Part shown: in pieces, positions 5,786 to 41,741 of the stretch | How positions within the stretch are numbered: the first letter of the stretch is position 1 | How the letters are laid out: every line of letters starts with the position of its first letter | From: Tepiditoga spiralis | GTDB taxonomy: Bacteria > Thermotogota > Thermotogae > Petrotogales > Petrotogaceae | DNA length: 64,000 nt | Assembly: GCF_014701195.1 (NCBI RefSeq) | Contig: NZ_AP018712.1 | Span: 1,320,501-1,384,500, forward strand | Direction: 5' to 3' | Notes under the pieces: model-generated | The model's input: the letters and a program-made list of their open reading frames with translations, nothing else | Database searches by the model: none | Told to the model about the DNA's origin: nothing | Program-made: the position numbers and the translations under genes

Positions 5786-6859
5786 ATGAAAGCTATAGTT
5801 TTATGTGCTGGTAAAGGTACAAGATTGAGACCATTAACCTTTACAAATGCAAAACCACTTATTCCTATTGCAAATAAGCCTACCATTATGTATAGTTTAG
5901 AAAAAATTAGAGAAGCTGGAATAACTGAAATAGGAATAATTGTAAATCCGGATAATAAAAAAGATTTTGTAAAAGTTTTAGGTGATGGAAAAGATTATGG
6001 ATTAGATATAAAGTACATAATTCAAGAAGAAGCAAAGGGATTAGCTCATGCTGTCGCAATAAGCGAAGAATTTATAGATGGTGATGATTTTTTAATGTAT
6101 TTAGGAGATAATCTTATAAATACAGATTTAGCAAAATTTACAACAGAATTTAAAGAAGGTAATTTTGACTCTTTTATACTTTTAACTCCAGTGGAAGATC
6201 CATCAAGATTTGGAATAGCAATAATGGAGGGGAATAATGTAATTGATGTTGTTGAAAAACCTCAAAATCCACCATCAAACTTGGCTATAGTTGGAGTATA
6301 TGTGTTCAAACCTATTGTTTTTGAAGCAATAAAAAATATAAAACCATCATGGAGAAATGAATTGGAAATAACTGATGCTATAGCTTGGTTAATAAAGAAT
6401 AAAGGAAATACTGGAGCTCAAGTAATATATGGATGGTGGAAAGATACTGGAAAACCAGAGGATTTAATAGAAGCAAATAGATCAATTCTTGAAAAAATGA
6501 AATCTAAAGATATTCAAGGAAATATTTATGAAAATTCAGTTGTTCAAGGAAATGTAAAGATAGGGAAAGGATCAAAGATAATAGATTCAATAGTAAGAGG
6601 ACCAGTAATAATTGGTGAAAACGTAACATTAAGCAATGCTTATGTAGGACCATATACTTCAATAGGGAATGGAGTTACTGTTGAAGATTCAGAAATAGAA
6701 AATTCAATAATTTTAGATAATGCGACTATTTCTTCATTTAAATCAAGATTAGATTCTTCTATAATAGGTTCAAATGCAGAAATTGTATCTATAGAAAAAA
6801 ATCCAAAAACAATAAAATTAGTTATAGGAGATTTTGGAAAAATAGAAATACCTAGATAA
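5786..6859 (+). CDS. Sugar-1-phosphate nucleotidyltransferase (long RmlA/GlmU-like)
   Basis: Predicted to make an NDP-sugar, most likely dTDP-glucose, from glucose-1-phosphate and dTTP. 357 residues. The N-terminal nucleotidyltransferase domain has LCAGKGTRLRPLT at about residues 5-17 and metal-binding LGDN near 108. The C-terminal part from about residue 245 has hexapeptide-repeat left-handed beta-helix character (IGKGSKI, IGENVTL, IGNGVTV). This matches the long archaeal/actinobacterial RmlA-type proteins; GlmU-like activity cannot be excluded. TAAGGAGTG at 5771-5779 makes the ATG at 5786 the start. It stands alone, with no other sugar-nucleotide genes around. Confidence 0.85.
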   Translation: MKAIVLCAGKGTRLRPLTFTNAKPLIPIANKPTIMYSLEKIREAGITEIGIIVNPDNKKDFVKVLGDGKDYGLDIKYIIQEEAKGLAHAVAISEEFIDGDDFLMYLGDNLINTDLAKFTTEFKEGNFDSFILLTPVEDPSRFGIAIMEGNNVIDVVEKPQNPPSNLAIVGVYVFKPIVFEAIKNIKPSWRNELEITDAIAWLIKNKGNTGAQVIYGWWKDTGKPEDLIEANRSILEKMKSKDIQGNIYENSVVQGNVKIGKGSKIIDSIVRGPVIIGENVTLSNAYVGPYTSIGNGVTVEDSEIENSIILDNATISSFKSRLDSSIIGSNAEIVSIEKNPKTIKLVIGDFGKIEIPR

Positions 6860-36692: not shown

Positions 36693-39600
36693 TTACATTA
36701 AATTAATTCCCCAACTTCCTGTATTTTCATAATAAACATTTTTTTCTGGTATATCATTTATATAAAATTTTAAAGTAAATTTTTTTAAATTAAATTCTGG
36801 AAGTAAAGATAATTCTGCTTCAAATAACATTGTCCAACATATTATTCTTTTTTCAATTTTAAACTTTGTAAAATCAAACAAATTATTATTAATATCATAA
36901 TCAAAATTTGTAGAGATAGATTCTATAATCGAATTGTGTTCTTTTTTTTCATAAGTAAGTGTAGAAGTTAAAAAGTTAGTATCAACTTTATAATCAAAAA
37001 TACTTTCAAGATTAAAGGGTGTTTTATTTTCTAAAAGTTTTAATCTAAAGTAATATTCATTATATTTATCTTTTAAATTAAAATCTCCTAAAGCTATATA
37101 ATTCTTATATGAAAATTTATATGAATTTTCAATTTCAGGCAAACTTTCTTCAAAACTTTTTTTATTAAAATAGTATTTATAAGATGACTTTATAAAATTA
37201 TTTCTTGAAAAAGATAATTTTTCTATATTTTCAGTATAATCAATTGGATTTTCTTCTTTATGATTATAAGTGAATTTTGTTTCATGATTTATTAATCTTT
37301 TTGATGAATTTGGGTTGTTTATTCTAAGAATTACTTTTGTTGTGTTTGGTTCTAAATGAAATTCATTAGTTGTATCATAAGAAGTATCTGTTAAAGCTGA
37401 AAATTTTAAATCAAATAAATCAATTGAATTTGATGTTTTAAAAGAAAGTTCTTTTAAATGTATATTTGAGAAATCATTTGCAAGATATTTTCTACTTATT
37501 TTTGCGTAACTTTCAAATATTTTTAATATTGGCAACTTGTATTGATAATAATCAATGTAATATAAATTATTTGTTGCTTCAGGAGTAAATCCCTTAGTAT
37601 ACTTTAATGAATTTTGAGCTTTAAAAATTGAAAAAGAATAGTTAAAATTTGGTGATGTACTAAAATTAAATACATGTTTTCCATAAAAATATGGTCCACT
37701 TTCAAAAAAATCTTTTGAATAATCAAAATTTATTTCATTATCTAGTTTTAAATTAGATGAAAAAAATTTAGAATTAGTTTTAAATAAAATATTTGAATTT
37801 TTTAATGAATTTTTTGATTCTAAACCATTTTTTACAGTTTCTGTAGCAACAACTGAAGTATTATATAATAAAGTTCCAGATAGTTTTGTATTGTGTGAAA
37901 AAAAATTATAATTTGCATTAGCATAAGTATCAATTTTTTTATTATTCCAAGCTTCTATAATGTCAGAGTCTAAATTTGTTTTTGTTTCTATATTTAAATT
38001 AAGTTTGTTTATACCAAAATTTGAACGTTTATACTTTTTTTGTAGTCCTTTTGAAGAAGAAACTGTTAAAAAATTTATATAATATAATTTGTTATTTTTC
38101 CATAAAAATTTTGATTTTATATTATTCAATTCTCCAAGTTGTGTTAGTAATGTTGGAACATTTAAATTTACAGAATTTTCATTTGATGAAGGAGAATAAA
38201 GATAGTTTAAATAAGAATATTTTCCAAAAATTTTATCATTAAGAAAATCTATTCTAAAACCAAAATTACCTGGATTATAATTTTTTATTTCTGAAAAAAG
38301 ATAAAAATTATAATCATTTATATTAAATCCATAGTTGAATGTAGATGTTTGATCAAAAGTATTTTTTTTAGTATCATTTAAAATCGATTGTTTATATTTT
38401 ATAAAAGTATTATTTTTAAACTTATAATTTATAGAAATATCTATGCTTAATTTATCTTCTCCATAGTTAAGAGATAATTTAAAGGGAGAATCTTTTTCAT
38501 CTGATAAATTTTGAAAATAAAAAGGGAAATAAAATACAGGAACACCAAATAAATCAACAATAACATCTCTTGCTACAAGAAATTTTTCTGGATATATAGA
38601 TATTTTTCTTGCATAAAAATAATAAGTTGTTGCTTGACAAGCCTTACATGTTGTAAGTTTTGTTCCATGTGCAATCATAAAATCTTTTTTTGTTGGTTTT
38701 TCAAGTTTATCTGACCATATTCTAACATCTATTTCTTTCTTTTCCTTTGTTTTATATTTTTGTACTGTATAAGAATTTAAAAATAAAGTATCATCTTTTT
38801 CAAAGTTTAAAGTTAATTCAGATGATTCAACAGTAGTCTTTTCATGCTTATAAGTAATATTACCTTTTAAAGTGGCATTTATTATTTTATTTTTTTTATC
38901 AAGAAGAGCATTACCATAATCAGCTTTAACTATAGAATTTTTATATTTTATTGTTATGGAACTTTCGAAGGTTATATTATTATCTTTTATATTTATATTA
39001 TTACAATCAATATAAACATTTTCAGAAAATCCTGTGTTTGTTAAAAATAGAAAAAATACTATTAAAATAAAAAATTTCTTAATGGGTTCTATTAGTTTGT
39101 AAGATAATTTAGTATCTAATAGAAAAAATAATGATATACCAGAAACAATAAAAATTATATTAGGTATCCAAGGAGCTAAAATTGGATTTAATATTTTTTC
39201 TTTTCCAAGAGCTGAAATCCAAGCTCCAGAACCCTGATATAAAACTACTAAAATAAAAGTAGAAATAACACTCCAAGATTTACTCTTTAAATTTAAAAAT
39301 AAAGATAAAGAAACACCTAAAAGTGCAATTACAAATGGTGAAAAAGAATCAGCAAATTTTTGTTGATAAGCAACATTTAAACTTGCTACATCTACACCAA
39401 GTTTTGAGAAAGTATCTATTTTTGTTTTTATTTCTTTAGTTGTCATATCATTAGGAGATTTAGCAAACCTTAAAAATTGATCAACATCTTGTTTAATGTC
39501 AAGTTTTAATTTTTTAAAAGAAATATCTAATTTTAAATATCCTTCATCATCAGTTTTAAATAATCTACCATTTTCCATATACCATCCATCTTTTTCTTTT

Positions 39601-40178
39601 TTTGCTTTTTTTGCATGATATACAGATACACTATCATATTTTACTTCATATAATAAAAGATCGTAAAGATATCCATGTTCTTTATCAACTTGTTTTACAA
39701 ATAAATAGCGACCATCACCTACATCAACAAATTGATTTTCTTCGATAAGTGCTTCTGCTCTTTTATAAATATACTTTGCAATAGCTTGTTTTGCTTTGAA
39801 ATTAGAAATAGGAACTATAGAATTTAAAAGCATAAAGGTTACAATACATAAAATCAAAGAATTTATTATAAATGGAATTACTATTTTTTTTAAAGGAATT
39901 CCTAAAGTTTGTAATGCAATGATTTCATTATCATTTGATAATCTTGAAATTAACCAAAATATTGAGAACAAAACACCAACTGGAATGCCTAAAGATATAA
40001 AATAAGGCAAATTATAAGCTAATAATAACAATAATTTTGAAAAAGAAACTCTATTGCTAACAATTTGTTCAGAAAGCTGGTATAAAAGTTGAACACTTGC
40101 AAAAATTATAAATCCAAAAAGACCCATTAAAAACGGTCCTATCATTTCTTTTGATAAATATTTAAAAAGTTTTATCAT
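36693..40178 (-). CDS. LptF/LptG-type permease fused to an LptD/OstA-like outer-membrane barrel
   Basis: One uninterrupted 1161-residue frame. Residues 1-355 are a complete LptF/LptG permease: helices about 16-35, 48-75 and 98-121, a periplasmic domain 122-275, then helices 278-297, 302-322 and 335-354. Residues 366-385 (KKFFILIVFFLFLTNTGFS) look like a signal peptide retained inside the protein. From 388 an OstA/LptA-like beta-jellyroll follows, then TTCKACQATTYYFYARKISI and GVPVFYFPFYF, the LptD middle signature, and about 600 residues of alternating aromatic strands fit for a beta-barrel. Cleavage after the internal signal could release the barrel. Starts by ATGA overlap with the PhoU-like gene. 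Confidence 0.88.
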   Translation of the reverse strand: MIKLFKYLSKEMIGPFLMGLFGFIIFASVQLLYQLSEQIVSNRVSFSKLLLLLAYNLPYFISLGIPVGVLFSIFWLISRLSNDNEIIALQTLGIPLKKIVIPFIINSLILCIVTFMLLNSIVPISNFKAKQAIAKYIYKRAEALIEENQFVDVGDGRYLFVKQVDKEHGYLYDLLLYEVKYDSVSVYHAKKAKKEKDGWYMENGRLFKTDDEGYLKLDISFKKLKLDIKQDVDQFLRFAKSPNDMTTKEIKTKIDTFSKLGVDVASLNVAYQQKFADSFSPFVIALLGVSLSLFLNLKSKSWSVISTFILVVLYQGSGAWISALGKEKILNPILAPWIPNIIFIVSGISLFFLLDTKLSYKLIEPIKKFFILIVFFLFLTNTGFSENVYIDCNNINIKDNNITFESSITIKYKNSIVKADYGNALLDKKNKIINATLKGNITYKHEKTTVESSELTLNFEKDDTLFLNSYTVQKYKTKEKKEIDVRIWSDKLEKPTKKDFMIAHGTKLTTCKACQATTYYFYARKISIYPEKFLVARDVIVDLFGVPVFYFPFYFQNLSDEKDSPFKLSLNYGEDKLSIDISINYKFKNNTFIKYKQSILNDTKKNTFDQTSTFNYGFNINDYNFYLFSEIKNYNPGNFGFRIDFLNDKIFGKYSYLNYLYSPSSNENSVNLNVPTLLTQLGELNNIKSKFLWKNNKLYYINFLTVSSSKGLQKKYKRSNFGINKLNLNIETKTNLDSDIIEAWNNKKIDTYANANYNFFSHNTKLSGTLLYNTSVVATETVKNGLESKNSLKNSNILFKTNSKFFSSNLKLDNEINFDYSKDFFESGPYFYGKHVFNFSTSPNFNYSFSIFKAQNSLKYTKGFTPEATNNLYYIDYYQYKLPILKIFESYAKISRKYLANDFSNIHLKELSFKTSNSIDLFDLKFSALTDTSYDTTNEFHLEPNTTKVILRINNPNSSKRLINHETKFTYNHKEENPIDYTENIEKLSFSRNNFIKSSYKYYFNKKSFEESLPEIENSYKFSYKNYIALGDFNLKDKYNEYYFRLKLLENKTPFNLESIFDYKVDTNFLTSTLTYEKKEHNSIIESISTNFDYDINNNLFDFTKFKIEKRIICWTMLFEAELSLLPEFNLKKFTLKFYINDIPEKNVYYENTGSWGINLM

Positions 40179-40915
40179 ATTTCATCCTCTAAAGAAAAAA
40201 AGTATTCAAGCTTATTATTTCTACACTTATATCGAGATCCTTTTATTGCCCAAATTACATTTTCAGAAATATTTGTTGCAAAATCTGAAAAAGTTTCTAT
40301 ATTTGTTAAAATAATTAAATGTAAATTTACAGATTTTATAGAGTCTTTTGAGCGATAAAGAGAACGTTTATAAGCTTTTAATAAACTAGATACTTCCTGT
40401 TTTAAAATACAAATATTTTTTGCAGGTTCAAAAAAATGTTCTGAAACTTCACTTACAGTTAATTCTTTTATTTCAAGATTTATAAAATCAGAAAACATTC
40501 TTAAAGAAGTAGATAACATTTCTTGAGTTTGCATAAATATATCTTCAAAATTATTTAAATTAATCCTTTGAGGCATTTTTAAAAGTTCAACATTTAATTT
40601 TGCAGCTTCTTCACATAAATCACCCATTATTTCAAAAACATAAATTAATTTTAATCCGACAAGATTAGCTTTTAAAAATTTACCAGTGAAGTTTGAAGCT
40701 CCTATTAGAGCCATACCATCAGCTTCTAATTTGGATTCTAAAAAATCTAATCTGTCATCTTGAGCTATAACTTCTTCACTTAAATTTTTATCTTTTTCAA
40801 AATAAGAATCTTTAAGCTTAAAAAACATTCCTTGAGTTAGTCTTCCCATTTTTAAAACATTGTTTAGATAAATTATTAATTTTTTATGACTGTATTCAGA
40901 AACTATAGATTTCAC
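40175..40915 (-). CDS. PhoU-domain-like protein
   Basis: 246 residues, almost entirely helical. Starts at GTG 40915, behind AGGAGGT, which itself lies in the end of nadK. Two repeated three-helix units, one with KANLVGLKLIYVFEIMGDLC and one with HLIILTNIETFSDFATNISE, follow the PhoU pattern (E/D-x-x-x-D with D-x-x-x-N metal positions). PhoU proteins regulate phosphate import and signalling; no pst or pho genes are nearby. It could instead act with the unusual transporter encoded next, but that is only suggested by overlap. Confidence 0.75.
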   Translation of the reverse strand: MKSIVSEYSHKKLIIYLNNVLKMGRLTQGMFFKLKDSYFEKDKNLSEEVIAQDDRLDFLESKLEADGMALIGASNFTGKFLKANLVGLKLIYVFEIMGDLCEEAAKLNVELLKMPQRINLNNFEDIFMQTQEMLSTSLRMFSDFINLEIKELTVSEVSEHFFEPAKNICILKQEVSSLLKAYKRSLYRSKDSIKSVNLHLIILTNIETFSDFATNISENVIWAIKGSRYKCRNNKLEYFFSLEDEI

Positions 40916-40916
40916 T

Positions 40917-41741
40917 TTATTCAAACCTCCTGCCAAAGGCAAGTTTGTAATTTAACACATTACAAAAATTATCTCCTAATTTTTGAGCAAGTTTTACCTT
41001 TTTTTTGCTACTTGTTATTGTTAAAGAAGTATTTAATTCTAATCTATGAATAATATCTCCATCTGCTGTTACATACGCAAGTTCCATTTCATCTGATTTT
41101 ATTTTTATTACTATTTTTTTTTCTGGAGACAAAATAAATGGTCGTATATTTAATGCATGAGGAGATAAAGGAATTATCTCTATTGCATTTAAATTTGGAT
41201 CTATTATAGCTCCACCAGCAGATAAGCCATATGCTGTTGACCCAGTTGGTGTTGAAACTATTATTCCATCGCCTTTAAAAGAATATAAAATATTATTTGA
41301 AGATAAAACATCTAAGTTAATAGTTCGCAATGGTTGACTTTTTTGAATTACAATATCATTTAATGCTAAAAATTTTTTATTTGCTATTATGCATTCTAAC
41401 ATCATTCTTTCAGAAAAAGTTATTGATTCTTTTGATATTTCTTTTGCAGCTAATTCTATTTCAGTTTCAGAATAAGCTGTTAAAAATCCAAGGTTTCCCA
41501 TATTAATTCCAATAATTGGTTTTGAATAATCAGCTGAAAGTTCTGAAACTCTTAAAACTGTTCCATCTCCACCAAAGACAACATAATAATCTGCCATTAG
41601 AGCTACTTTTTCAGTAACTTCTGTTCCAGCAGTAAATATGTTTAAAATTTCTATTTTATACTTTTTAAATAAAGGAATTACGTGTTCTTTAATGTGCTCA
41701 AGTGAAACTTTATTTGGATTATAAAAAAAGAGCACTTTCAC
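40917..41741 (-). CDS. nadK: NAD kinase
   Basis: Phosphorylates NAD to NADP. 274 residues. GGDGT at residues 57-61, NMGNLGFLT near 80, and STPTGSTAYGLSAGG around 160-175 are the three family hallmarks. Starts at ATG 41741, 4 bases after yggT. The 3' end carries the ribosome binding site of the PhoU-like gene. Confidence 0.96.
   Translation of the reverse strand: MKVLFFYNPNKVSLEHIKEHVIPLFKKYKIEILNIFTAGTEVTEKVALMADYYVVFGGDGTVLRVSELSADYSKPIIGINMGNLGFLTAYSETEIELAAKEISKESITFSERMMLECIIANKKFLALNDIVIQKSQPLRTINLDVLSSNNILYSFKGDGIIVSTPTGSTAYGLSAGGAIIDPNLNAIEIIPLSPHALNIRPFILSPEKKIVIKIKSDEMELAYVTADGDIIHRLELNTSLTITSSKKKVKLAQKLGDNFCNVLNYKLAFGRRFE

Follow-up and report, generated by a model that had tools for sequence, protein, structure and literature searches.

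How can one reading frame encode two proteins whose Gram-negative counterparts belong in different membranes? The question is raised by a gene in a 64,000-nucleotide stretch of the Tepiditoga spiralis genome (hereafter the window), which a sequence-only reading had described as an unbroken 1161-residue frame combining an LptF/LptG permease with an OstA/LptD-like barrel. The open reading frame and homology bear this description out. Positions 36693–40178 of the minus strand form a single open frame from ATG to stop, encoding 1161 aa, which we designate lptF/G-lptD. Read directly, the DNA has no in-frame ATG, GTG or TTG in the linker between the permease and LptD halves, and the fusion should therefore be translated as one chain. 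The gene directly upstream (40175..40942, minus strand) overlaps the start of the fusion by 4 bases and encodes a PhoU-domain protein, assigned by domain search, which we treat as a neighbour only. The gene order ruvB, yggS, nadK, phoU-like, fusion is common to the window's family and family f9 (window:36693-43767 and L219), and the window's ruvB-to-fusion run (window:36693-43767) also includes a yggT-like ORF.

A stop codon or frameshift between the halves was looked for in relatives. An open fusion, counted as a frame of 900–1500 aa, is present in 89 of the 100 Thermotogota genomes with a permease, which rules out a frameshift or assembly artefact as its origin. Among the 11 exceptions, six are truncated where a contig ends, three (G041, G044, G093) carry internal stops or frameshifts, and two (G053, G005) are real splits. 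In G078, a frame break inside the barrel leaves a fused frame of 907 aa. A single scan of named genomes returned the fusion only from Thermotogota, from Bipolaricaulota/Acetothermia and from one ‘bacterium’ MAG; in the 100 Bipolaricaulota genomes searched, about 76 of 91 permeases lie in frames longer than 950 aa, and more distant members were also inspected closely. Relatives in both phyla thus keep the fusion. Trees built from the permease half and from the LptD half agree on almost all families, a pattern that fits vertical inheritance over a long time, and the presence of the fusion in both Thermotogota and Bipolaricaulota, the two phyla covered by the survey, fits a common envelope type. 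In one member of the Bipolaricaulota, G175 (L234:3292-4803, on a contig of 1.73 Mb), the frame of the permease stops within the signal peptide, with no LptD after it; its LptD may have been lost or may lie elsewhere.

The first 355 residues (39114..40178, minus strand) form a complete LptF/LptG permease with six helices and a periplasmic jellyroll, as the sequence-only reading had it and as PF03739, AlphaFold (AF2) and Foldseek agree. Specifically, residues 6–351 align with the whole of the PF03739 (LptF_LptG) model (E = 6.9e-78; 262.6 bits against a cut-off of 27.9), the AF2 model shows six helices and the strands of the periplasmic jellyroll, and the best Foldseek match for this half is LptG/LptF (6mjp_G, LptG; E = 2e-15, TMt 0.69). 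The equivalog cut-offs of TIGR04407/TIGR04408 (LptF or LptG) are not reached (148.5 of 230 bits and 142.8 of 240), and the half is therefore filed under the LptF/LptG superfamily, specifically neither as LptF nor as LptG. Across relatives, conservation of the permease is strong, and many columns of the alignment are invariant. Weak PDDEXK_3 and GxxExxY matches fall below cut-off and were taken as chance.

Residues 386–1161 are, as judged from sequence and structure models, a homologue of LptD. Searched by itself, the C-terminal part of the window protein matches no LptD/OstA model of Pfam or NCBIfam, so the LptD claim had to be tested through relatives. We collected 54 further complete Thermotogota fusions (55 including the window's) and used 47 C-terminal halves for a profile. 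PF03968 (LptD_N/OstA) matches 24 of 47 related C-terminal halves, and the 47-sequence profile, searched against the PDB, retrieves LptD first (7omm, 4.6e-8; 8h1r, 8e-8) and LptA structures next. The search of this half against LptD/OstA profiles, as proposed in the sequence-only reading, was thus negative for the window protein alone and positive for the family profile and PF03968. Judged by that reading's own refutation test, the window protein by itself would have seemed to refute the LptD claim, a verdict that the family evidence overturns. The alignments to 7omm and 8h1r take in the OstA domain as well as the TTC...GVPVFYxP stretch specific to LptD.

On this basis, the LptD half comprises an OstA/LptA-like periplasmic domain (residues 386 to about 480; 38739..39023), whose first strand begins at residue 388 in the AF2 model; the LptD signature region (residues 505–560; 38499..38666), which carries TTC(511)...GVPVFYFPFY and aligns to the solved LptD structures; and an all-beta region predicted to be an LptD-type outer-membrane barrel (residues 561–1161, approximate limits; 36696..38498; AF2 pLDDT 87), all on the minus strand. 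The AlphaFold models have a pLDDT of 84.8 for the whole chain and 87.2 for residues 386–1161. LptD is the best Foldseek match with either model (8e-18 for the whole-chain model and 1.5e-16 for residues 386–1161, where ranks 1–22 are all LptD), and structure prediction of the full chain thus yields LptG/LptF for the first half and LptD for the second. The TM-scores of the LptD half against the PDB are only 0.30–0.38, with high rmsd, so that the models identify the fold family but not the exact barrel (strand number, registration and closure).

Cysteines are rare in the LptD half, and Cys511 of the TTC motif is invariant in all 55 fusions. Its predicted disulfide partner is the C-tail cysteine (LHCW/IICW), Cys1114 in the window protein (36837..36839, minus strand), which is kept in 49/55 relatives at 46–56 residues from the C-terminus. 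In E. coli LptD, cysteines (Cys31, 173, 724 and 725) pair the N-domain with the barrel. Six fusions (L068, L069, L070, L072, L073, L081) have His or Lys for the C-tail cysteine and keep the TTC cysteine. The C-terminal residue is Phe, the usual barrel-assembly signal, in 38 of 55 fusions, and Met in the window protein and 14 others. The barrel half diverges fast (12–35% identity to the window's across families). Fusions of family f2 (Kosmotogaceae/Mesotoga-like, L041–L048) are 1426–1466 aa, about 300 residues longer than the others, with nearly all of the extra length in the barrel region.

Between the halves lies a predicted internal signal peptide (residues 361–385, KLIEPIKK + FFILIVFFLFL + TNTGFS; 39024..39098, minus strand), defined in an alignment of the 55 fusions. 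The signal-peptide-like segment first noticed at residues 366–385 was correctly read as signal-like; by sequence, cleavage by signal peptidase I is predicted after Ser385. The layout after the sixth permease helix is the same in all families: a short loop, basic for the most part, leads into a hydrophobic core, and an ending like that of a signal peptidase site comes last. Among the 53 Thermotogota rows, position −1 is A, G, S, C or T in 49 and without a small residue in four, position −3 is small or aliphatic in 49, and position −2 is mostly Phe or Tyr; the Bipolaricaulota junction is often of the AxA or WA↓QEPPP type. In the genome that contains the window, Skp and LptA have N-terminal signal peptides with the same x-F-S ending. 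Residues 376–385 have a pLDDT below 50 in the AF2 model. The hydrophobic core is about 11 residues long in the window, and the median uncharged, non-polar-amide run across relatives is 15. The simple (−3,−1) rule is also satisfied at some ordinary helix ends; being too permissive alone, it was rejected as proof of a signal peptidase site, and the site-by-site counts and natural splits were used instead. Very probably, the cell uses this internal signal to cleave the chain into two parts.

The strongest evidence for a cut comes from four genomes (UR.bin268, G005, G152 and G153) in which the halves are separate genes, parted exactly at the junction, and every separate lptD begins with an N-terminal signal peptide. 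UR.bin268 is closely related to the window (71% permease identity); there, the permease ends with the stop codon TGA at 5932–5934, and lptD begins four bases on, with ATG at 5939 and a complete 29-residue signal peptide. G005 has separate lptF, lptG and lptD genes, distributed over two loci. Both UR.bin268 and G005 are MAGs, and each split call rests on a single assembly. In G152 and G153, both Bipolaricaulota, the two halves lie next to each other as independent genes, and GTG is the probable start codon of lptD. The signal peptide of LptD is thus internal in the fusions and N-terminal in their split relatives. Both Thermotogota splits are nested among fused relatives in the trees, which makes it probable that fused ancestors came apart repeatedly at this one position. 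We disfavour G005 as the ancestral unfused state: its LptD and both permeases group with fused sequences of their own family, although the permease branches are long. Of the Thermotogota genomes seen, G005 alone has two complete LptF/G genes, and it encodes a 603-aa multi-repeat OstA/LptA-like protein (L051:6410-8743, L143:6294-8105); the duplicated permease and the longer bridge may go together there.

Sequence and models make it highly likely that lptF/G-lptD encodes a precursor that is cut at the internal signal peptide to give two proteins of an Lpt-type lipid exporter. The six permease helices would insert in the inner membrane and leave the chain end in the cytoplasm, where the short basic loop and the internal signal peptide would start Sec export of the second half, and signal peptidase I would cut after Ser385. 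The LptF/G product, probably a homodimer since there is normally one LptF/G gene per genome, would join LptB and extract lipid. The C-terminal product would be an ordinary LptD that Skp and BamA fold into the outer membrane and a Cys511–Cys1114 disulfide locks, and a separate LptA-like protein would link the two products.

The sequence-only reading had offered a choice between one envelope-spanning chain and a cut at the internal signal; the conserved site, the splits and the retained LptA favour the cut, and the spanning chain is disfavoured. Cleavage that is absent or delayed, such that a covalent chain joins the inner-membrane ABC permease to the outer-membrane pore for part of its lifetime, is unlikely; if it did occur, lipid-export sites would be physically fixed where the two membranes lie close. 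That the chain stays intact, with the internal hydrophobic segment as a seventh transmembrane anchor and one molecule spanning the envelope, is quite unlikely. Such a chain would agree with the single frame in most genomes of two phyla and with an OstA domain that follows the hydrophobic segment with almost no linker, but the core is short for a helix anchor, the signal-peptidase-type site is conserved, and four natural splits in which lptD carries an N-terminal signal peptide are hard to reconcile with a chain that must remain whole. Furthermore, separate LptA and LptB genes indicate that a bridge between the products is kept, which argues against a one-chain protein, and the outer membrane of both Thermotogae and Bipolaricaulota is detached at the poles (PMC10665443), beyond the reach of one short chain there.

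As to the separate LptA, LptB and LptC genes about which the sequence-only reading had asked, LptA-like and LptB genes were found; LptC was not securely found, as PF06835 (LptC) matches fall mostly in the LptA-like gene. LptB scores over the TIGR04406 equivalog cut-off in 41/41 genomes (G000:C1:301172-301858 in the window's own genome). The LptB gene lies directly downstream of a gene for a Skp/OmpH-like periplasmic chaperone (L141:7167-8372; G000:C1, about 301166-302371). In the window's own genome, the LptA-like protein (about 210 aa) is encoded away from the fusion. Its gene comes after one for an Omp-alpha-like SLH/coiled-coil protein and two ORFs for patatin-like phospholipases (L142:3700-7949; G000:C1, about 2480700-2484950), a neighbourhood that is a possible envelope-lipid cluster. 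A BamA/Omp85-family gene is present in seven of the eight genomes checked.

A search with PF03331 for LpxC, the key LPS-synthesis gene, found none in 103 Thermotogota, in line with the earlier expectation of an unusual cargo in a phylum without classical LPS. Ordinary LPS is therefore not the cargo, and we describe the system as Lpt-like lipid export, not LPS export. The cargo is most likely an outer-membrane glycolipid, which is the least certain part of the explanation; glycolipids have been proposed as the cargo of LPS-less Lpt systems, and T. maritima glycolipids are mentioned (PMC10353723). The lack of LpxC and the fast divergence of the barrel half would also suit a vestigial LPS-transport relic, drifting without transport function in lineages that lost LPS, but this is very unlikely given that the permease is strongly conserved, the TTC cysteine is kept in 55/55, the fusion is retained in nearly every genome of the phylum, and the LptB, LptA-like and BamA-family genes are kept. 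The least probable reading, that the C-terminal half is some other outer-membrane barrel (a porin or receptor) with a borrowed OstA domain, could appeal to PF04453 (LptD barrel), which finds nothing over cut-off in 103 genomes, and to the missing OstA match of the window protein alone, but PF04453 also fails on the controls from Synechococcus, Thermus and Bacteroides and is thus too insensitive to be informative as an LptD test, the signature region can be aligned to known LptD structures, the interdomain pair of cysteines is retained, and TonB receptors and ushers come far below LptD in the Foldseek ranking (about 4e-4 or weaker, against 1.5e-16).

A cleaved two-product precursor, as we favour here, has a counterpart in Bradyrhizobium fbcH, which encodes a cytochrome b/c1 precursor: a multispanning inner-membrane protein is joined to an exported protein via an internal signal peptide, and one gene gives two proteins, as proposed for lptF/G-lptD. 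fbcH differs in that it serves a respiratory complex and both products stay at the inner membrane. The window's system shares with E. coli LptB2FGC-LptA-LptDE the permease fold, the LptB ATPase, an LptA-like bridge, the LptD N-domain with a predicted barrel, the cysteine pair and a BamA-family assembly factor. It departs from the E. coli system in that one frame, with an internal signal peptide, holds both permease and LptD, and in that one LptF/G gene takes the place of two; LpxC is missing, hence there is no ordinary LPS, and LptC was not securely found. Like the Lpt-like system of Borrelia burgdorferi (PMC10353723), it belongs to a diderm without LPS for which a glycolipid cargo is proposed, but B. 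burgdorferi has a complete Lpt set of six separate genes, with separate LptF and LptG and no fusion. One LptF/G gene is also found in the Lpt clusters of diderm Firmicutes (PMC5007114), together with LptB and two LptA/LptC-like proteins; unlike in the window, no clear LptD was found there, and these organisms make LPS.

Previous surveys portray the Thermotogae envelope differently: lptD was never found in atypical diderms, and Thermotogae were without nearly all outer-membrane genes studied, bamA excepted (PMC8871954); LPS capacity could not be found in Thermotogae (PMC5007114). An Acetothermia genome study found no LPS genes and reported an outer-membrane antigen and a permease (PMC6092417). 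A passage of PMC10353723 mentions T. maritima Lpt orthologues, citing Putker et al. 2015. No description of the fusion was found in the literature searched, the Putker et al. 2015 review lying outside that scope.

The lptF/G-lptD polyprotein is a variant of the Lpt pathway for which the literature searched gave no description, in which one gene encodes the pump and the exit pore of a lipid-export system, predicted to reside in the inner and the outer membrane, respectively, after cleavage. In place of the absence reported in PMC8871954, virtually all Thermotogota genomes, and most of those from Bipolaricaulota, encode an LptD that is concealed by the permease domain ahead of it, and the fusion is a shared character joining the two phyla. 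It is an apparent bacterial precursor whose two products would end in two different membranes. The system is a candidate for how toga lipids reach the surface, and the question of what an LPS-free Lpt pathway carries becomes testable.
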